DNA of 64,000 nucleotides from an uncultured Ruminococcus sp. (GTDB lineage: Bacteria > Bacillota > Clostridia > Oscillospirales > Acutalibacteraceae): NCBI GenBank assembly GCA_902800065.1, contig CADCDE010000001.1:1-64000 (forward strand), given 5' to 3'. The translations under genes were made by a program, and so were the position numbers. A model generated the notes under the pieces. It was not told where the DNA came from, ran no database searches, and was given only the letters and a program-made list of their open reading frames with translations. Positions 1-52,051 of the stretch are shown piece after piece (position 1 is the first letter of the stretch; every line of letters starts with the position of its first letter).

Positions 1-2900
1 GATGCATTTTCAGTAGGCGTCAAAGTTTCTTCGTTTCCTGCATAACGAGTAAATGTGCTGACCTCAGTTGTATAGTATTCGTTGACAGTTCTTGAAGAGG
101 GAGAGGTAAAAGAAGCCGGATTATCGGCATTAGCCCCCGTACCCCTTGTAGGTATATGAAGCTGATTTGCCTGAACAATCGTCATTGTAGAATACTTTTT
201 GAACTGGCTTTCAAACTCTGCGGAAGATTCTGCATCATCACCCTCCATGCCGTACATAAGATAGAGATTACCGCTTGCATCGGTAATATTAGTCATTTTG
301 GAAATGCCATCATCTTTATCTTCCACACGAGTTGAGAACTGATCTACCCACAGATAGCTGACATTACCTACTGCCTTTATTGATGAAGTATTGTTGGAAA
401 AATTATATTTTTGCGTGGGATAGTAATTAAGTGTACTCGAGCCTGATGGTGCAGTACCGCTATCAACACTATCCCAATCAGTAAGCTTGTATGTATAACC
501 TTTAGTAAATTGTAGATCCTGAGTAGTCCTATTCCAACATCCATTACTACCTTTAATGATTTCACCTGCTGTATATGGAAATGTCAGTCCACAATTTGGA
601 TCCATTCTTACGAAATGTACACGTTCTTTTTGTCCGACATTAAAACTGTAAATATGATCCGAACCTGGAACAAGAGTACCTAATACAGTTCTATTATCGC
701 CAGTTCCTGTATAAAGATATGCACCTATCAATGCACTATCTTTATCCCAGTAATCAGTAGTACTTCCAATCTTAGTATTCAAAAAGATAATATCTTCTTG
801 CGTTACATCTACAGCATCGGTATTGGTTAAGACTGTTGTGATACTTTGAGCATCTGTGTTGCGTCTGTTTGTATTATATCTGACGTTTTTGTCATATGTA
901 GGATAAGGTACACCAACACCCGTTGTATCCTCTTCTTCAGCCGGTAAAGAACCTGACGGAGGTGTGTTAGATACATTATACATGAATACATCATCTTCAG
1001 CAGCAACCTGTGTTATCTTTTGCAGACCATCATTAACCACGCTAAAATCTGTATTCTCTCTGATTTTCATCTTACTGAAATTTGCTTCAACAGGGAAGTT
1101 ATAGCGAATTTTAAGGTTGGATTCCAACATACCACGTTCCATGTAGAATATTGTCATGGTGTGAGTATAGGTGTCATCGTATTTTGATACAGTGTTTGTT
1201 TTTCCCTCACTGTGTCCGAGGAGAGCAACAAATTCTGCTTGAGTAGACTTAATCGGAACATTTGTGGAAGGTGTCGCACCAAGATTATTTTTTCCGCTTG
1301 TACCAAAATCAAGTGCTTTCTTTGCTACAGCAGTTCTATTCTTAAAATTGATATAACCCTCTGATTTACCGTGTGCACCGCCAAGGTCAAGCACCAGATT
1401 ACCGTCAATGAATACCCAGAGGTCATCGTCACCGGTAAATTCAAACAATGTAGGAACTGTACCGCCCTTTTTCATAGCGTTGCCGTTTGCATCAAGAACT
1501 TCTGTTGTTCCATCTTCTGTCAGTTTGAATTCCATTTGGAATTTTGCACCGAAACAGCAGTTGTTATTAGCTTCGCTTGTATCCTTGGAATTGAATGGAA
1601 AGAATCCTTTACCACCACCGCCATAGATAGCTTCGGTAGTTTCTCTGAATCCGTTAGCAGAATCAAAGTACACATTGGAATCCTTTGAATTGAACTGATA
1701 ATATCTTGCCTGCTCAGTGGTAGTGCCGCTGTCGTCACCTGATACATAACCGACAACTGTACTTGCTTGTTTCCACACTTCATAGAATGGAAAGTAATAT
1801 CCCTTGCCGCTGTTTTCATAAGCAACCATACTGTTGTTGCTTTTTTGGGTTGCCCATGTGGAACTAAAGTAAGGCAGCTCTACATCATTTTGCATCAGTT
1901 TGCCGCCTGTTCCCAGTTGATTGTCTACCAGCTTTTGCACGGAAGCATCTGTTTGAGTTAGATTCCATTTATTTGTGGAATTGTTCCAAGTTGCACTTCT
2001 TAATGCAAGGTTTGCCTGCCAGTAAAAGTTGTTATAGGGATATACATTTGAAGATGTATATTGATTTATTGGAGGTTTACTTTGCTCATTGGGTTCATCT
2101 CTTAAAAAACAATCGAAATAAAGTGGGGTTTCATAATCGCAAGAATAAATATCTTTTGAACCTGCAGCTTTATATGCTCTATAATCACTTACATTTACGT
2201 AAAATGTATATCCATTTTCATATGTACTTGCGTTACCATTATATCGAACCACATCATTACCATAGTATTGTTCACCGCCGCCTGGCAGGTCGTCACTACC
2301 ATTTGTAAATTTTATTTGCGTAGGTGTAAATCCAACATAATCAGAATTAGTAGTACTAAATGTATATACAAATTCAACTGTGTTATTTTCGCCTCTTTGA
2401 TACGTCATTTTTTTGCCAGGCCAAGGGTTCGTTGCTGCTGAACCATTTCTCATATATATGCTTACATCGTCTGTTGATTTGTATCCAGAATTTTGAAGAA
2501 CTATTGTAATATTATTTCCAGCAGCAGATTCAAGATTACCATTCGAAATCGCACTATTGAATGTGGTAAAATGTTCCGTATCCACGCCAACAGTAGAATC
2601 AGGGGTGTAATCACCGCTGACACCATTAATTTCCTTGTCTGACCTGTAATCGTACATCATAACACTGGCTGGTTTCATTGTACCTTTATATACATAACCG
2701 CTTTCTACACCAGTAGTGTTCTTTGCCATTGTCTTGCTGTCTTTGGTATACTTGGTGATATAAAGGCTTTCTGATCCGCCCTCGTCCGCCTTAACTTCCA
2801 ACCCAATATACGGCAGCCCGACAAACACCATCACGAAAGCCAACACAAACGATATTATCCTCATCTTTGTTGTGATTCTTGTCTTAATCCTTATTTCCAC
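1..2900 (-). CDS. Secreted fibro-slime domain protein, 3' end outside window
   Basis: One frame stays open from GTG at 2900 to the left edge (about 966 residues visible); the C-terminus lies outside. GTG is chosen because AGGAGAGG sits 8 nt upstream and the protein then begins with basic residues and a hydrophobic signal (residues 14-30, ending near VKA). Around residues 115-215 the pattern WPGKKM followed by FTNG resembles starch-binding CBM26 modules. Near residues 480-530 the motif FTGDDDLWVFIDGNLVLDLG followed by GAHG is the signature of the fibro-slime domain, a PA14-related fold found in surface and adhesion proteins. I infer an extracellular matrix or substrate-binding protein. It lies directly downstream of, and co-directional with, the TnpB-like gene. 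The domain call is firm; the ligand is unknown. Confidence 0.85.
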   Translation of the reverse strand, partial: MEIRIKTRITTKMRIISFVLAFVMVFVGLPYIGLEVKADEGGSESLYITKYTKDSKTMAKNTTGVESGYVYKGTMKPASVMMYDYRSDKEINGVSGDYTPDSTVGVDTEHFTTFNSAISNGNLESAAGNNITIVLQNSGYKSTDDVSIYMRNGSAATNPWPGKKMTYQRGENNTVEFVYTFSTTNSDYVGFTPTQIKFTNGSDDLPGGGEQYYGNDVVRYNGNASTYENGYTFYVNVSDYRAYKAAGSKDIYSCDYETPLYFDCFLRDEPNEQSKPPINQYTSSNVYPYNNFYWQANLALRSATWNNSTNKWNLTQTDASVQKLVDNQLGTGGKLMQNDVELPYFSSTWATQKSNNSMVAYENSGKGYYFPFYEVWKQASTVVGYVSGDDSGTTTEQARYYQFNSKDSNVYFDSANGFRETTEAIYGGGGKGFFPFNSKDTSEANNNCCFGAKFQMEFKLTEDGTTEVLDANGNAMKKGGTVPTLFEFTGDDDLWVFIDGNLVLDLGGAHGKSEGYINFKNRTAVAKKALDFGTSGKNNLGATPSTNVPIKSTQAEFVALLGHSEGKTNTVSKYDDTYTHTMTIFYMERGMLESNLKIRYNFPVEANFSKMKIRENTDFSVVNDGLQKITQVAAEDDVFMYNVSNTPPSGSLPAEEEDTTGVGVPYPTYDKNVRYNTNRRNTDAQSITTVLTNTDAVDVTQEDIIFLNTKIGSTTDYWDKDSALIGAYLYTGTGDNRTVLGTLVPGSDHIYSFNVGQKERVHFVRMDPNCGLTFPYTAGEIIKGSNGCWNRTTQDLQFTKGYTYKLTDWDSVDSGTAPSGSSTLNYYPTQKYNFSNNTSSIKAVGNVSYLWVDQFSTRVEDKDDGISKMTNITDASGNLYLMYGMEGDDAESSAEFESQFKKYSTMTIVQANQLHIPTRGTGANADNPASFTSPSSRTVNEYYTTEVSTFTRYAGNEETLTPTENA

Positions 2901-2954
2901 GATGAATTCCTCTCCTTTATAAAGGTTAATTACTGAAGTGGCATATCCTCATAT

Positions 2955-3042
2955 TTAATATAAGGATTTCCCGCTCAAGTACACGAAACCGTATACAGAT
3001 AAAACGGGCTTTCTCCGTGTGCCCCACGGTACAGCATTTAAA
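2955..3042 (-). ncRNA. Candidate right end / guide-RNA scaffold of the TnpB-like element
   Basis: TnpB proteins use a right-end RNA (omega-RNA) that starts inside the gene's 3' part and runs past its stop. Immediately after the TnpB-like stop the minus strand has a perfect hairpin, CCGTG/CACGG with a 5-nt loop (3015-3029), then CTTGAGCGGG at 2970-2979, which resembles the tail that precedes the guide in IS605-type right ends. That resemblance is from memory and unverified. If it holds, the guide would begin around 2965 and read toward the fibro-slime gene's leader. The boundaries are inferred. Confidence 0.4.
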
Positions 3043-3981
3043 TTAAACAGCCTGAAAGCTGTAAAGCATTTTGCTTAATGCTATGTTGTCAGTCATGACA
3101 AGACTTTTTCCTTTTTCCAACAGCTTGTATTTCAGGAAAAACTTGAATAGTGCCCAGCCAAAGTCATAGCTGACACCCTGTGCCGGGTCTTTGATGCACA
3201 CACAGTCATAGGCATTGGCTATCTGCCGGGACTGCTTGTGCAGGAAGTCATCTCTTTGGCGGTAGAATTTTTCTCTGATTTTCAGCACTTTTTTGTGTTG
3301 TTTATCACGATTGTTTGACTTGTATTTCATGTTTGCGAGCCGTTTCTTTTCACGGCGAAGCTTTTTGAGCGTCTTTTGGATATACGGCGGATAGCCTATC
3401 TCTCTGCCGTTGCTGTCGGTAAATAAACCTTTGTCGGAGTATTCCACGCCGATACAGCTTTGCGGCAGGACATCGGTTTTCTGCGGCTCGTACTCAAACA
3501 GCACACACGCATAGTAGCGTCCTTTAAAGTCGCATTTCACGGTCACGGATTTCAGCTTGTAGCTGTCCGGTATGGTTCTGTGCAGTTTAATTTTCACCAA
3601 GCCTATCTTCGGCAGTTTTACAGCACCGTCCCGTATCACAATATTTCCGTTCACGCAGTTGGTAGTGTAGGCTTTTCGGGAATGTTTCTTTGATTTGAAT
3701 TTCGGAAAGCCGGCTGCGGGGTTTCTGAAAAACCTTGTATAGGCATCCTGCAAATTCAGCTGAGCATTGGCAAGAGCGAGGCTGTCTACCTCTCTGAGCC
3801 ACGGAAACGCTGTTTTGTACTGTGCGGGTGTATTTTTAAGCTGCTTGCCGGTTTCGTTGTAGTAAGCCAGCTTGTCGGTGAGCATCTTGTTAAATATAAA
3901 CCTCACGCCGTCAAAGGTTTTTTCTATTTTGGTTAATTGTTGAGGGGTAGGGTACATTCTGAATTTATATGCTTTGTTCAT
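3043..3981 (-). CDS. Nuclease-dead TnpB-like protein (IS200/IS605 OrfB family)
   Basis: The start is ATG 3981 with GGGTGA upstream; a longer frame from 4017 lacks a ribosome site. The product is 312 residues, against about 370-400 for active TnpB. The N-terminus is typical (YKFRMYPTPQQ; the SLALANAQLNLQDAY helix; GFPKFKSKK; KLPKIGLVKIKLHR). The RuvC motifs are damaged. The first Asp of the usual G-[LIV]-D-Y-S motif is Glu180 (IGVEYS). The second, usually VEDxN, is IKDPAQ with Lys264 in place of the catalytic Glu. The CxxC zinc ribbon and final DRDxNAAxN motif are absent; after KSLVMTDNIALSK the frame runs on for nine codons (MLYSFQAV, then stop). The frame is otherwise intact. DNA cleavage should be impossible, but guide RNA and DNA binding could persist, as in described TnpB-like nuclease-dead repressors (TldR). 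The alternative is a decaying insertion sequence. Confidence 0.85.
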   Translation of the reverse strand: MNKAYKFRMYPTPQQLTKIEKTFDGVRFIFNKMLTDKLAYYNETGKQLKNTPAQYKTAFPWLREVDSLALANAQLNLQDAYTRFFRNPAAGFPKFKSKKHSRKAYTTNCVNGNIVIRDGAVKLPKIGLVKIKLHRTIPDSYKLKSVTVKCDFKGRYYACVLFEYEPQKTDVLPQSCIGVEYSDKGLFTDSNGREIGYPPYIQKTLKKLRREKKRLANMKYKSNNRDKQHKKVLKIREKFYRQRDDFLHKQSRQIANAYDCVCIKDPAQGVSYDFGWALFKFFLKYKLLEKGKSLVMTDNIALSKMLYSFQAV

Positions 3982-4027
3982 GTTGTTCACCCTTTTTGTA
4001 TATGTCACAAAAAACACTGAAAGGTGC

Positions 4028-4053
4028 TCAGGGGGGTAACTGAGCAGCTTTCG
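4028..4053. repeat. Hairpin upstream of the TnpB-like gene, possible IS605 left end
   Basis: GCTCAG and CTGAGC arms enclose a loop rich in G on the plus strand, just upstream of the TnpB-like start. IS200/IS605 elements carry subterminal hairpins at each end recognised by TnpA; no tnpA is present here. Assigning it as the left end is inference. Confidence 0.35.
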
Positions 4054-4065
4054 GCATATTTTGAA

Positions 4066-4284: not shown

Positions 4285-6246
4285 TTATGCCCATGTGAGT
4301 GCAGTGTTGATATCTGTTGGTGTAGTCAAAGTAGCTGTTTTACCAAGTTCAGTAGTTGTTGAATCAGCTAATATCGTTGTATTATCATCAGCATAAGTAA
4401 TCTGAGCAGACTTAAGTGCAACATTCAGATCGAAATCAAATGATTTATACATTTTTTCTGTTACGCTACTGTCAAGTTCTACACTATCTATGAGTTTTGA
4501 AGATGTCTCTCCACCCTCAAGAATACTTGTGTAATAGAAAACTGCTTCATTATTAGCAATAGGATTCGGAAGAACCTGCCACTTTTCAGCAGTTCCACCT
4601 GCTGTTACATCGTTAGCAAGGTTGATGTTGATCTTAAGAACATCAGTAGCTGATGTTGCAGCAGCGGCAGCAGTCTGAGCGGCATTATATGCAGCATTAG
4701 CAGCAGACAATTCAGCATCAGCAGCAGCTTTCTGAGCTGTCAATTTTGCAAGTGTCGCAGCTGATTCTGTACCGGCAGCAACGGCGCTATTATAAGCAGC
4801 AAGAGCAGCATCATAAGCAGCTTGTTTTGTTGTTACTTCATCATCAGCAGCAGCTTTTGCAGCTAAAGCATCATTATAAGCCTGGGTAGCACCAGAAGAA
4901 GCATTACCAAGTGTTGTTATTGCAGCCTGAAGTACACCATAAAGTGAACCAGGTGTATAATGTCCTGTAGTTTCGTTTCCATCCGTTTGTCCGTAAGCCT
5001 TTTTCATTTCATTTTCATAGTTTGTCTTAGCAATAAGTTCAGCGGCAACGAGCTGATAATAATCATGCAGCTCAGCAGAAGGAGTAAACTTTTGAAGCTC
5101 TTCAACCGTCAATGTTGCCAAAGTATTGTTTGTAACTCCTGCCGGATTTGTTGCAAGCCATGCAGCTACTTCATTTGCAAAAGCATTTGCCTGATCAGTG
5201 TTAGCGGTATCCCAAGCAGTTTTTGCTGCTGTAGCATCCTGATATGTCTTTAACAACGAGCCAGACTGAGGGGAAGAAGCTGAACCAGATGCTCCAAACA
5301 GTTTTGCTTTTGAAGCATCGTAAGCTGCCTGCGCTGCATTTTTAGCATTAGTTGCATTATTGTAAGCAGTAGTTGCAGTCAACAACGTAGCAGCAGCAGT
5401 TGACTGAGCCGAAAGTGCAGCATTTAATTCATCTTGTGCACTTGTCAATGCTGTATTTTGGGATGAAGTTGTTCCTGAATTAGCTGCATTCTCATCTGTC
5501 GCTTTATTAACAAGCTGTGTCAAATACTGAACATTGTGATTTGCTGCATCGAGACGAGCAGCTGCTTTCTCTAAGTCTGAGAACAAACTATTAGGAATAC
5601 CAGTATCATAAGTAGCAACTAATTTATGATTTGCAGCATCATACTCCAATGCAACAGGATCTATAGTTTCTGTTTTTTCTTCTAAATATTTGCAGGTTGC
5701 AGCAGAAAGATTACCATCAGTTGCTACTCCATCATCAGCAAGGTCAACCTGTGAATCCGGTGTAATGTTCAGATCTGTTATCTTAAAGAACTTACCAGTT
5801 GTACTATCATAATAATAACCTTCGTATTCAAATGTTTCAGCTTGCGTACCAGTATCAACATCAATACTTCTTCTGAAAACATACAGTCCATCAGCATCTG
5901 GTGTAAACTCAGTCTTTACCGTAGTGCCCTGATCAGCTGGACGAATTACAATCTGGTCACCGAGAGTTTTAGTAGATGTAGCAGGCTTAAAAGCAAGGAA
6001 AGAACCAGCCTCCATAACATATCTCTCTTCTTCTGTCAATTCAACACATTTTGAAGCATCAAATATTTCTGTAGGAACTTCATTAGTGATTGTAAGAACA
6101 CCAGATACAGTTTCTTTAACAAATGCACCAATATTACCAGTGTTAGTAGCATAAACATCTTTGTTAATAGTATTTCCGGGCAGCCAGTTTTTCGGCGGAG
6201 CAAAGGACTCGACGATTCTTACATCATAATCAGCATTTGCTGACAA
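4285..6246 (-). CDS. BsaA-like SipW-type exported matrix protein with alanine-rich central region; 5' end uncertain
   Basis: The first usable start in frame is TTG 6246 (653 residues), but the homologous sequence continues upstream: the frame reads KRLTGNFILF then TTFAWFTSTDEVTNRLSA, a SipW-type signal and mature N-terminus, up to a TGA at 6340-6342 with no ATG/GTG/TTG between and no ribosome site. The N-terminal half (NTINKDVYATNTGNIGAFVKE) and C-terminal 115 residues match the BsaA family of SipW-dependent biofilm matrix proteins as I know it. Residues about 225-535 are a low-complexity alanine-rich, coiled-coil-prone insert built on AAYNAA/AAKAAAD themes. It points away from the three-gene SipW-type operon to its right. 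It may be a 5'-damaged pseudogene, use a non-standard start, or contain a sequencing frameshift near 6325. Confidence 0.7.
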   Translation of the reverse strand: MSANADYDVRIVESFAPPKNWLPGNTINKDVYATNTGNIGAFVKETVSGVLTITNEVPTEIFDASKCVELTEEERYVMEAGSFLAFKPATSTKTLGDQIVIRPADQGTTVKTEFTPDADGLYVFRRSIDVDTGTQAETFEYEGYYYDSTTGKFFKITDLNITPDSQVDLADDGVATDGNLSAATCKYLEEKTETIDPVALEYDAANHKLVATYDTGIPNSLFSDLEKAAARLDAANHNVQYLTQLVNKATDENAANSGTTSSQNTALTSAQDELNAALSAQSTAAATLLTATTAYNNATNAKNAAQAAYDASKAKLFGASGSASSPQSGSLLKTYQDATAAKTAWDTANTDQANAFANEVAAWLATNPAGVTNNTLATLTVEELQKFTPSAELHDYYQLVAAELIAKTNYENEMKKAYGQTDGNETTGHYTPGSLYGVLQAAITTLGNASSGATQAYNDALAAKAAADDEVTTKQAAYDAALAAYNSAVAAGTESAATLAKLTAQKAAADAELSAANAAYNAAQTAAAAATSATDVLKININLANDVTAGGTAEKWQVLPNPIANNEAVFYYTSILEGGETSSKLIDSVELDSSVTEKMYKSFDFDLNVALKSAQITYADDNTTILADSTTTELGKTATLTTPTDINTALTWA

Positions 6247-6604: not shown

Positions 6605-6660
6605 AATATGTAAAGAATTTTTGAGTTTTCGTAAAATTTGTGAAAGGAGAGCAGTTTACT

Positions 6661-7521
6661 ATGTCCGAGAAAACTACAAATACACCACCGAAATATAAAC
6701 GGTCTCCGGCTTTGAATGCAAGTATTATATTAGTTTTTTTGAGTATAGTACTGTTGATAACATTGGCAATGTTTGTATCCTTTGACGAAGTGACCAACCG
6801 ATTTGAAGCCGGCAAGGTTGATATTGTACTGACAGAGCCTCACTGGGATCCCAAAAACGGAGAAGAAACCGTGCCGAATACATTCATAGACAAAGATCCG
6901 ACTATCTTCAACAAGGAGGATACCGTCAATACATATGTATTCCTGGAAGTTATAGTTCCGTATGATGATGATCCGAATCTTATCATAGAAAAAGCTTATC
7001 AAGATGATAAGATATATGCCGGAAAGCCAGCTTATACAAACACGGAAGGTAAAAAAATTCCGTTGTATAAATTCGTTGCGACAGGTGAAGCGTACGTTAA
7101 AGACAATTTGGATAATGTTAATAATTTAACCGGTTATACGGGTGATGACCTTTATAAAGAAACGCAGAATATAAATACTGCCAGTTGGAAACTTATTGAT
7201 GACTATCCACAATCAAATGCAACGAATAAAACTTGGACTTATGTATATGCTTATGTTCAGGCAAATAATAATGAAAAGTTGGAACAGCTTCCTCCAAAGA
7301 CAACTGTACAAATTCCCTTATTCAATAAGATATATGTTCAGAATTTCAGGGAAAGAAAAGCCGATTCAACTAACCATGTTACAGCATTTCCCGATCCTGC
7401 AAGGGATTACAGCATACATATAAATGCCTATGGTATTCAGGCTAATTTCCTTAAGCCTGATAATCAAACGACAGACATTCCGGGAGAAGTATGGGCAATG
7501 TTGAATCCGACAACACCATAA
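6661..7521 (+). CDS. SipW-type exported protein, TasA/camelysin-like (first of three)
   Basis: ATG 6661 follows AAAGGAGA with a 10-nt gap; an in-frame GTG at 6640 lies ahead of that site and is unlikely. The 287-residue product has a short cytoplasmic head, one hydrophobic segment (about residues 20-42) and then SFDEVTNRFEAGKVDIVLTE, the pattern that follows SipW cleavage in TasA, BsaA and camelysin proteins. The C-terminal half carries YSIHINAYGIQA, shared with the next gene (ITIDAYGIQA), so these are paralogues. It is first in an operon with 7544 and 8448. I infer a secreted, fibre- or matrix-forming subunit; no SipW peptidase gene is visible in the window. Confidence 0.8.
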   Translation: MSEKTTNTPPKYKRSPALNASIILVFLSIVLLITLAMFVSFDEVTNRFEAGKVDIVLTEPHWDPKNGEETVPNTFIDKDPTIFNKEDTVNTYVFLEVIVPYDDDPNLIIEKAYQDDKIYAGKPAYTNTEGKKIPLYKFVATGEAYVKDNLDNVNNLTGYTGDDLYKETQNINTASWKLIDDYPQSNATNKTWTYVYAYVQANNNEKLEQLPPKTTVQIPLFNKIYVQNFRERKADSTNHVTAFPDPARDYSIHINAYGIQANFLKPDNQTTDIPGEVWAMLNPTTP

Positions 7522-7543
7522 ACAGAAAGCGAGATGATTTTGT

Positions 7544-8437
7544 GTGAAGAAAGTAAAGACTATTGTACCAATAGCCCTCGCTTGTACTACAATTATCGCA
7601 TTTTTTTCACTTGGAGCGACAATATCGTATTTGACGGATGCTGAAGCGAAAGATAATATTATAACAATAGGCAAGGTTGCTCTTGAAATTGATGAGCCGA
7701 GTTATGAGGATAGTAAGATAGTTGCGGCAGGAGGTTCCGTTACAAAAAATCCTGTCATTACAAATATAGGCACAAAAGACGAGTATGTATTTTTCCGAGT
7801 AGGAGTTCCGAAAAGAAATGTCACACTTCTTTATGAAGCACACACAGAAATAGGTGATAATCCAAAAAGAATATATGAAGAAGGTACACCTACTGAAAAT
7901 AATAGGACATTTGACGATAATTATAATACAACGGCAATAGTACAAAAATCTGATGAAATCTACAAAATAATAGCCGATGGTGTCAATGGTACAACATCAA
8001 CAGCGGTTTCAGCTGAACTTACTGATAATGGTGAACCGAAAGCTTCGCCCCAACTTGATTTTTACTACAATAAAGGTGTTGATTCATCAAATAATGTAAA
8101 AGAGGGCTGGATATATCTGAAAAGGGAACTCAATCAGCCAACATCAGGAACAGATGCAGGAAAGTATGATTATTACTATTTCGGATATAACAAAAAGCTC
8201 GCAAAGGAGAAGAAGACAGTATCACTTTTTGACAGGATACAGTTAAAGAGCTTCATTGATGAGGAGGTCAATTCTAAAGATGATGATAAGCCATTAAATG
8301 AAGAAACCCAAATCACAATAGATGCGTATGGTATACAGGCTGACAGCTTGGGGGGTGAGTTGAACAGTTTAAGAGATTTTGTTGAACAAGCGGATTTACT
8401 GAAAATTTTTAATATAATTAAAGAGAAAAAGGGGTGA
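7544..8437 (+). CDS. SipW-type exported protein, TasA/camelysin-like (second of three)
   Basis: The GTG start at 7544 lies 22 nt after the previous stop; the ribosome site is weak (GAGATGA), suggesting coupled translation. The 297-residue product has a short signal (residues 4-27) running into TISYLTDAEAKDNIITIGKV and ALEIDEP, the clearest TasA/camelysin-type junction of the three (Y-[FL]-T-D-x-E, N-x-[FI]-T-x-G). Later regions include IGTKDEYVFFRVGVP and a basic loop before DAYGIQAD. It is predicted to be extracellular and beta-sandwich-like. The matrix function is inferred from the family. Confidence 0.82.
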   Translation: MKKVKTIVPIALACTTIIAFFSLGATISYLTDAEAKDNIITIGKVALEIDEPSYEDSKIVAAGGSVTKNPVITNIGTKDEYVFFRVGVPKRNVTLLYEAHTEIGDNPKRIYEEGTPTENNRTFDDNYNTTAIVQKSDEIYKIIADGVNGTTSTAVSAELTDNGEPKASPQLDFYYNKGVDSSNNVKEGWIYLKRELNQPTSGTDAGKYDYYYFGYNKKLAKEKKTVSLFDRIQLKSFIDEEVNSKDDDKPLNEETQITIDAYGIQADSLGGELNSLRDFVEQADLLKIFNIIKEKKG

Positions 8438-8447
8438 ATAAGCAGCC

Positions 8448-9365
8448 ATGAGGAAATATATTGATGCTTTCACCGTCAAGAGATATACAGGTATTTTCAT
8501 AATATTAGCAGTTGTGACTGTTTTTTCACTTATGGTCAATGTTACGATTGCATATCTGGGCGATAAAAAAGACAAAACGAATACCGTAAAAGTAGGCTAT
8601 GGAGAGGTGTCCATAGACGAGCAGTTCAGCGAGCCGTCAGAATTGGAAATTATAAATACTATCACAAAACAGGTTCAGATACAGAATACAGGTACAGTAC
8701 CTGCATTTGTGAGAGTATATGCGGAATTTGCCGACAGTAGTATTGCAAGTCAGGCAAAAGTTAAGTACGGAACAGGAGAAAATGATGTATGTTCGTGGGC
8801 TGAATTTAAAGAAAAGCTGAAATATAATAAAGCTACTTTTGAAGAACCATTTGAAGATTTAAAATGGCGTTATGTTCCTCTTGATGATGCAAGCGGCTTG
8901 GGCGGATACTTCTATTATACAGAGGCTCTGAATCCATATGAGGAAGCATGGACAGATAATACTCAAACTCCAGCCGTAGTACATAATGCACAGCCAAGTG
9001 TTCCAACGACTCCGTTGTTTTATGGTGTAACGATAGACTATCAAAAGTATGATAGTAATAATGATGTTATTGATAATAGTAACATTGACAGGATACAGCC
9101 TGTTGAGATGATAATATACAGTGAGCTTGTGCAGACTGTTGATACAGGTAGAAGTAAAGTTACTACAAAAACTGTAGATGAGTATGGTAATACTGTAAAT
9201 GAAGTTGCTGATGTAGAAAGCAGTGTTTATGGCTATGACTTTAATAAAACTCCTTTGGAAAATACAAGTGGAAACAAAGATAACTGGCAGGACGCTTGGA
9301 AGAGATTTTTGAAGAAAGATACACCAAGAGAACAGAGCGAAGTGAGCAAGCAACAAACAACGTAA
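8448..9365 (+). CDS. SipW-type exported protein, TasA/camelysin-like (third of three)
   Basis: ATG 8448 starts 11 nt after the previous stop. The 305-residue product has one hydrophobic segment (residues 15-36), then TIAYLGDKKDKTNTVKVGYG and EVSIDEQF, again the SipW-type mature start. QIQNTGTVPAFVRVYAEF matches the conserved strand that follows in this family. The tail (residues 270-305) is charged and Lys/Gln-rich without a membrane segment. The operon ends at the terminator just downstream. Confidence 0.8.
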   Translation: MRKYIDAFTVKRYTGIFIILAVVTVFSLMVNVTIAYLGDKKDKTNTVKVGYGEVSIDEQFSEPSELEIINTITKQVQIQNTGTVPAFVRVYAEFADSSIASQAKVKYGTGENDVCSWAEFKEKLKYNKATFEEPFEDLKWRYVPLDDASGLGGYFYYTEALNPYEEAWTDNTQTPAVVHNAQPSVPTTPLFYGVTIDYQKYDSNNDVIDNSNIDRIQPVEMIIYSELVQTVDTGRSKVTTKTVDEYGNTVNEVADVESSVYGYDFNKTPLENTSGNKDNWQDAWKRFLKKDTPREQSEVSKQQTT

Positions 9366-51544: not shown

Positions 51545-52051
51545 ATGAGTAAATTTATTACTGAATTTAAAGAATTTGTCATGAGAGGTAATGTTCTTGA
51601 CCTGGCAGTCGGCGTTATCATAGGCGGAGCTTTCAATACAATCGTAACTTCACTTTGTAATGATGTTATAATGCCTGGTATCGGCTGGATAGTATCAGCA
51701 GTTTCAGGTCAGAGCTTTGTCAATGCTGAAACAGGTCAGCCTGATTTCTCCAAGGCAACAGAGGCTTTGAATGTTGGTCCGATAGGCTTTGGCAAATTCG
51801 CAGCAGCTATAATAAACTTCTTACTTATGGCACTTATCATCTTCATTCTGGTAAAGTCCATCAATAAGCTGATGGCTATCCCGAAGAAAAAGAAGGAAGA
51901 AGAACCCGCAGCTCCTACAACAAAGAAGTGTCCGTTCTGTATCAGCGAAATAGACATAGCTGCAACACGCTGTCCTCATTGTACAGCTGTAATTGAGCTT
52001 GCAGCTGAGGCTCTTGCAGAGGACGACAAAAAAGAAACTGTGAAAAAATAA
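51545..52051 (+). CDS. mscL: Large-conductance mechanosensitive channel with C-terminal zinc ribbon
   Basis: 168 residues, longer than the usual 130-150. The first 118 residues are MscL: FKEFVMRGNVLDLAVGVIIG then GAFNTIVTSL (TM1), a periplasmic loop, and TM2 (FLLMALIIFILVKSINKL). A linker of Lys/Glu leads to KKCPFCISEIDIAATRCPHC, a two-CxxC zinc ribbon (about 127-150). The channel releases solutes on hypo-osmotic shock; the ribbon may serve assembly or interaction. ATG 51545 follows AAAGGAGAAA. Confidence 0.95.
   Translation: MSKFITEFKEFVMRGNVLDLAVGVIIGGAFNTIVTSLCNDVIMPGIGWIVSAVSGQSFVNAETGQPDFSKATEALNVGPIGFGKFAAAIINFLLMALIIFILVKSINKLMAIPKKKKEEEPAAPTTKKCPFCISEIDIAATRCPHCTAVIELAAEALAEDDKKETVKK

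Follow-up and report, generated by a model that had tools for sequence, protein, structure and literature searches.

A nuclease-dead TnpB homologue beside an adhesin gene in rumen Ruminococcus: a probable RNA-guided regulator

Is a tnpB homologue that has lost its catalytic residues and lies between surface-protein genes the remnant of a transposon, or has it been kept for another role? This question is raised by the minus strand of a 64,000-nucleotide (nt) stretch from an uncultured Ruminococcus sp. (GCA_902800065.1, contig CADCDE010000001.1, positions 1 to 64,000; hereafter the window). An initial annotation had proposed that the gene at 3043-3981 may encode a domesticated TnpB-like nuclease-dead repressor (TldR). 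The dead TnpB, its guide RNA and its linkage to a surface gene are strongly supported: the inactivation and the neighbouring gene are conserved, the copies are monophyletic and under purifying selection, and the scaffold covaries, whereas the proposed repression of a gene is unproven. The sequences are best read as a TldR-like clade of RNA-guided regulators that is new and linked to adhesins.

The dead TnpB protein and its relatives

The protein and the positions that distinguish it from an active TnpB are as follows.

3043..3981, minus strand: nuclease-dead, C-terminally shortened TnpB homologue (TldR-like), 312 amino acids (open frame, alignment, Pfam, tree, structure)
3442..3444, minus strand: codon 180, RuvC-I Asp replaced by Glu (alignment; Glu, Glu and Thr in the three complete members)
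3190..3192, minus strand: codon 264, RuvC-II Glu replaced by Lys (alignment; Lys in all three complete members)
3046..3069, minus strand: common C-terminal tail MLYSFQAV, replacing the zinc ribbon and RuvC-III (M305, L306, Y307, Q310, A311 and V312 identical in the three)

The 312-codon frame was open throughout, as initially annotated. Glu180 and Lys264 aligned with the catalytic residues Asp191 and Glu278 of ISDra2 TnpB (8bf8), and both substitutions that had been read from the sequence were thereby borne out. The protein ends ahead of the zinc ribbon and the third RuvC Asp; the absence of both, also noted earlier, was confirmed by the alignment and by Pfam, which found only HTH_OrfB_IS605 and OrfB_IS605. 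The guided_TnpB profile NF040570 scored 173 bits (cut-off 100). The predicted structure had a predicted local distance difference test score of 87.6 (below 50 for the final 14 residues), and its best PDB match was 8h1j, an ISDra2-type TnpB ternary complex, at a template modelling (TM) score of 0.79. In agreement with the earlier remark that no tnpA is present, the ten other open reading frames of 101-195 amino acids around three loci gave no Pfam match, TnpA domain included, and no left end of the type TTTAAC followed by CTAAATGGGC was found within 330 nt upstream of the dead gene.

Among 64 Ruminococcus genomes, 26 had a TnpB match and four, all rumen Ruminococcus, carried a dead copy, which was complete in the window genome (G000), UBA1213 (G021) and RUG13097 (G067) and partial in RUG11404 (G018); short fragments elsewhere were left unclassed. 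The G021 and G067 proteins are 69% and 60% identical to that of the window, and the G018 copy differs at 1 of 265 residues up to the contig end inside the gene. The same two RuvC positions are inactivated in G021 and G067 (Glu or Thr; Lys), and all three complete members share a deletion of 10 residues after RuvC-II and end in MLYxxQAV. Recurrence of the same inactivated positions, deletion and tail at two further loci indicates more than chance. The four dead copies formed one clade (support 100/100) nested among active Ruminococcus TnpBs, in a tree from which published TldR sequences were left out; from this position we infer that the inactivation occurred independently of the published TldRs.

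The inactive state is conserved within this clade under purifying selection. Between G000 and G021, the proportions of synonymous and nonsynonymous differences were 0.68 and 0.18, and differences at codon positions 1, 2 and 3 numbered 68, 47 and 142 (chi-square p 2e-13); the resulting omega of about 0.1 is a rough figure, with synonymous change (dS) near saturation. The comparison of homologues suggested by the initial annotation gave a positive answer: conserved inactivation and truncation, purifying selection and a conserved adhesin neighbour. A scan of 84,980 species genomes returned 441 relatives; among the best 80, which were kept, only the same three relatives were dead at both catalytic columns. 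The 122 loci scored at both columns comprised 98 with Asp/Glu, 12 with Asp/Lys (nine being gap artefacts with the Glu visible and three left undecided), nine with at least one column unaligned and three that were dead. Searches of phages, plasmids and viral contigs yielded relatives below 60% identity, short pieces excepted, and a further search gave no match.

Guide-RNA scaffold, guide and adhesin gene

Downstream of the dead gene, the following features lie within a short distance.

2938..3030, minus strand: predicted guide-RNA (omega-RNA) scaffold with three stems, from the transposon right end (alignment and fold)
2945..2967, minus strand: terminal scaffold hairpin (ancestral right-end hairpin), overlooked by the initial annotation (right-end alignment and fold)
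2918..2937, minus strand: guide TTCAGTAATTAACCTTTATA (right-end alignment; first five bases TTCAG in all three loci)
2909..2917, minus strand: Shine-Dalgarno-like AAGGAGAGG, immediately after the guide and belonging to the surface gene (sequence)
2802..2900, minus strand: secretion leader of the surface gene, conserved (DNA identity to G021 is 89% here and only 49% over the following 100 codons)
1..2900, minus strand: surface protein gene with a fibro-slime domain, GTG start at 2900, running off the contig start (TIGR02148, E 1.4e-14)

The guide of a TnpB is the flank of the transposon right end. More than 40 right ends of active relatives terminated in GAGTATGTCAC or a near variant, after which comes flanking DNA, the guide; rows of the right-end list that lay within coding sequence (e.g., L055, L126 and L170) were dropped. 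The scaffold ends of the dead loci (...GGATATGCCAC, ...GGGATATGCCAC and ...GCGTGTCAC) aligned to this active right end, which places the window scaffold at 2938-3030 and the first base of the guide at 2937. The window scaffold therefore terminates at ...GGATATGCCAC (position 2938), about 28 nt past a GCGGG. The initial annotation was right to place a guide-RNA scaffold before the surface gene but wrong to end it at this GCGGG, since a third hairpin continues beyond it. A guide directly after GCGGG was rejected because active right ends end in GAGTATGTCAC and the dead loci align there. The guides begin with TTCAGTAATTAACC in G000, TTCAGTTATTAACC in G021 and TTCAGCATTAAAAA in G067.

A scaffold followed the stop codon of every dead gene seen (3/3 loci), and the three folded more stably than shuffled sequences (z -4.4, -2.6 and -2.7). 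Using MAFFT, 28 of 35 distinct scaffolds were aligned, and the structure applied was that of the window's own fold, a choice that favours it. Stem 1 was invariant. One pair of stem 2 (alignment columns 24-62) was C-G in 3/3 dead and U-A in 25/25 active scaffolds, and the apical part of stem 2 and stem 3 differed in sequence, yet each dead member folds them. Rfam gave two chance-level matches and nothing more.

In all three loci with sequence there, an adhesin-type gene with a secretion leader begins at most about 150 nt past the stop codon, and in G000 and G021 the guide lies just ahead of the adhesin Shine-Dalgarno sequence. Within the dead gene, DNA identity between G000 and G021 was 72 and 67% in the first parts but 83% at the 3' end. 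It was 85% for the scaffold, 81% for guide and Shine-Dalgarno sequence together and 89% for the leader, and fell to 49% over the next 100 codons. This mosaic hints that adhesin bodies may have been exchanged behind a constant block. Adhesin relatives were detected in 8 of the 64 genomes (in G067 only with a shorter query), some with pilin-like genes downstream; six of the eight showed no dead tnpB in the 64-genome TnpB search, indicating that the adhesin family is wider than dead TnpB. All four contigs with a dead copy terminate in the adhesin or the dead gene. At the level of sequence, an intact frame, loss of the catalytic residues, retention of the predicted scaffold and conserved adhesin linkage are established.

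Separately, the G021 adhesin frame (L057, about 363-365, contig C3) stops and seems to be resumed in another frame, which would seem to reflect a frameshift, slip-strand switching or an assembly error.

Candidate promoter inversion and target sites

A tyrosine recombinase gene (PF00589, E 2e-23) lies directly upstream of the dead gene in G021. Between it and the ATG is an inverted repeat with 23-nt arms that are 96% complementary and 212 nt apart; such an arm pair occurred in 0 of 200 shuffles of the region. The arms enclose a terminator-like hairpin and a promoter-like TTGAAA-17-TAAAAT with a TG, facing away from the gene, and a second promoter-like sequence, TCGACA-17-TATAAT, overlaps one arm and faces the gene. 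Promoters were consensus matches only, and their number in this region (8) was not clearly higher than in shuffles (6.5, standard deviation 2.7). In this one assembly, inverted repeats thus flank a predicted promoter beside a site-specific recombinase, which is the anatomy of an inverton, and expression of the unit together with its adhesin is probably phase-variable in G021 only. G067 has a single site resembling an arm (18/23 bases) right before the dead gene, towards which a promoter-like TTGACT-17-TATGAT also points. Neither an arm-like site nor a recombinase was found in the window or the G018 contig; the dead gene of the window is preceded by a terminator-like hairpin.

The active left ends suggest TTTAA or TTTAAC as the transposon-adjacent motif (TAM), based on 16 true left ends chosen by eye from a loose list (13 TTTAAC and 3 TTTATC), with the other rows dropped as chance. 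According to PMC13418256, guides of only 6 nt suffice for TldRs, and a target is therefore hard to see by sequence. The comparison of guide and TAM-flanked sites that had been suggested gave no convincing target in the searched genomes. A 14-mer with up to 3 mismatches matched the window 10 times (one match being the guide itself) against 9.7 expected, and a 20-mer with up to 3 mismatches matched only itself in G000. Over four genomes, TTTAATTCAGTWAT with 1 mismatch gave 8 matches against 11 in reversed-pattern controls, and TTTAATTCAGY gave 6 against 2, none of them judged convincing; TTTAACTTCAGY gave 2 matches against 10 in controls. Exact TTCAGTWATTAA occurred three times in three genomes, twice as the guide itself and once in the 3' end of a G021 open reading frame, without a preceding TTTAA.

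Two weak leads emerged. One is a SpaA-type pilin gene on the G018 contig that carries the dead gene, with 6 seed matches (the G000 guide was used, that of G018 being unassembled). The sole TTTAATTCAGY match in G018 fell within the major pilin gene of a SpaA-type operon, which, with a sortase and a 2927-residue reading frame, occupies C21 at 16.4-29.9 kb (L242, 4.4-17.9 kb); pilin homologues in G000, G021 and G018 C62 had no TAM-flanked site. The other is the start of mscL (window 51557-51570, minus strand), where TTTAAA precedes 11 of 12 guide positions, probably by chance. Autoregulation through the first codons of the dead tnpB itself was rejected by eye, as the seed breaks at base 6 (G000 and G021) or base 4 (G067). 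As no convincing target site was found, the repression of a rival surface gene is something that we infer.

Interpretation, rival explanations and neighbouring genes

A functional, nuclease-dead TnpB that keeps its guide RNA is well supported by these comparisons. The window locus combines TnpB homology, RuvC loss, conserved inactivity, a retained scaffold, loss of transposon features and stable linkage to a non-transposon gene, as TldR loci do. The protein is probably a domesticated RNA-guided DNA-binding regulator and, by analogy, likely acts as a repressor. Dead tnpB, scaffold plus guide, and adhesin would form a single co-directional unit. The dead TnpB would bind the processed guide (5' end TTCAGT...), and the complex would use a short seed to locate a TAM-flanked site and block transcription there. 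The target would most plausibly be the gene of a competing surface structure, so that cells producing this adhesin would no longer produce another. In G021, where the unit is preceded by the predicted invertible promoter and a tyrosine recombinase of its own, adhesin and silencer could switch together; this step is read from the G021 anatomy and was not seen in the window's own genome. A full phase-variable surface switch, in which a recombinase flips the promoter of an adhesin and guide-complex unit that silences rival pili or adhesins, with adhesin bodies exchanged behind the constant block of dead tnpB, guide and leader, is a possible but tentative extension.

Several points weigh against the RNA-guided DNA-binding regulator. 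Only four loci are available, all in fragmented assemblies in which each contig breaks off within or close to the adhesin or the dead gene; the G067 guide diverges past TTCAG; the inverton occurs in one locus; and the searched genomes gave no convincing TAM-plus-guide match. The guide also lies within the adhesin 5' untranslated region, so its conservation could serve translation. Dead TnpB might accordingly bind the scaffold in the adhesin leader mRNA and control processing or translation, with no DNA target at all. Such a cis-acting role would suit the packing of scaffold, guide, Shine-Dalgarno sequence and start codon into about 130 nt of the window, in an order kept in 3/3 loci, with the guide abutting the Shine-Dalgarno sequence; the identity of 81-89% from the 3' end of the dead gene to leader codon 33 (67-72% in the rest of the gene); and the lack of a DNA target in the searched genomes. 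We consider it unlikely, since nearly all of the predicted fold corresponds to DNA-bound TnpB, which a pure RNA role would not need, and the TldRs described in PMC13418256 act on DNA.

The remaining alternatives carry far less weight. Retention of the protein solely as an antagonist of active TnpBs in the same genome, through their scaffold RNA or DNA sites, would make the adhesin linkage incidental. The genome does encode several homologues whose residues are intact and whose scaffolds are related, but a coordinated pair change distinguishes the dead scaffolds from those of active copies and the linkage recurs in 3/3 loci, making this highly improbable. The simple IS605-type decay beside a surface gene, raised as a caveat in the initial annotation, can point to other broken tnpB copies in the genome and to the missing left end. 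It is effectively excluded by derived losses shared among complete loci that are 60-69% identical, the single clade, the purifying selection seen as third-position excess, conserved open frames, the compensatory scaffold pair and the conserved neighbour.

An RNA-guided regulator would have close published counterparts. TldRs silence flagellin genes, and upstream of csrA-tldR loci there are hin genes and promoter inversions (PMC13418256). The fliC-linked TldR clade of Enterobacter prophages described there likewise pairs a RuvC-dead TnpB homologue and a retained guide RNA with a co-encoded surface-appendage gene, although here a fibro-slime adhesin, encoded on contigs of rumen Ruminococcus, takes the place of the prophage flagellin. 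In the csrA-tldR loci of Oscillibacter and Flavonifractor, also gut Bacillota, a promoter inversion, either predicted or observed, lies ahead of a dead TnpB and guide RNA; G021 differs in having a tyrosine recombinase and 23-bp arms in place of a Hin invertase, with no csrA or flagellin gene adjoining. The active IS605-type TnpBs of the genus (e.g., L012, L013 and L041) are 55-57% identical to the dead protein and share the scaffold architecture and the right end GAGTATGTCAC, but they retain the Asp, the Glu, the zinc ribbon and often a left end of TTTAAC followed by CTAAATGGGC, none of which the dead clade has. No adhesin-linked TldR was found in the literature searched, in which subscription papers were thinly covered. 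If the proposed role is correct, TnpB-born RNA-guided transcription factors arose again in an adhesin-linked rumen lineage, extending the TldR idea from flagella to adhesins; a silencer coupled to DNA inversion would give an all-or-none swap of surface structures, and the protein, at about 310 residues, would provide a dead effector already trimmed by nature and equipped with a defined scaffold.

Upstream of the dead gene, the window contains two further features.

4009..4052, minus strand: terminator-like hairpin with a T run, separating the dead tnpB from the BsaA-like gene (z -3.8 for 3990-4060)
4285..6246 (open to 6339), minus strand: BsaA-family SipW-dependent matrix protein gene, the upstream neighbour (TIGR04090, 57.7 bits, just below the cut-off of 60)

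Together with the TIGR02148 match of the surface gene, the slightly sub-threshold TIGR04090 match upholds the fibro-slime and BsaA-like neighbours named in the initial annotation. A BsaA-family gene also adjoins the dead gene in G018. At L104, right-end hairpins are closely spaced in opposite orientations and resemble palindrome-associated elements that carry no gene. On the plus strand of the window, 6640-9365 contains three adjacent genes identified by eye as TasA/CalY-like secreted-matrix genes; they are divergent from the BsaA-like gene there and co-directional with it in G018.
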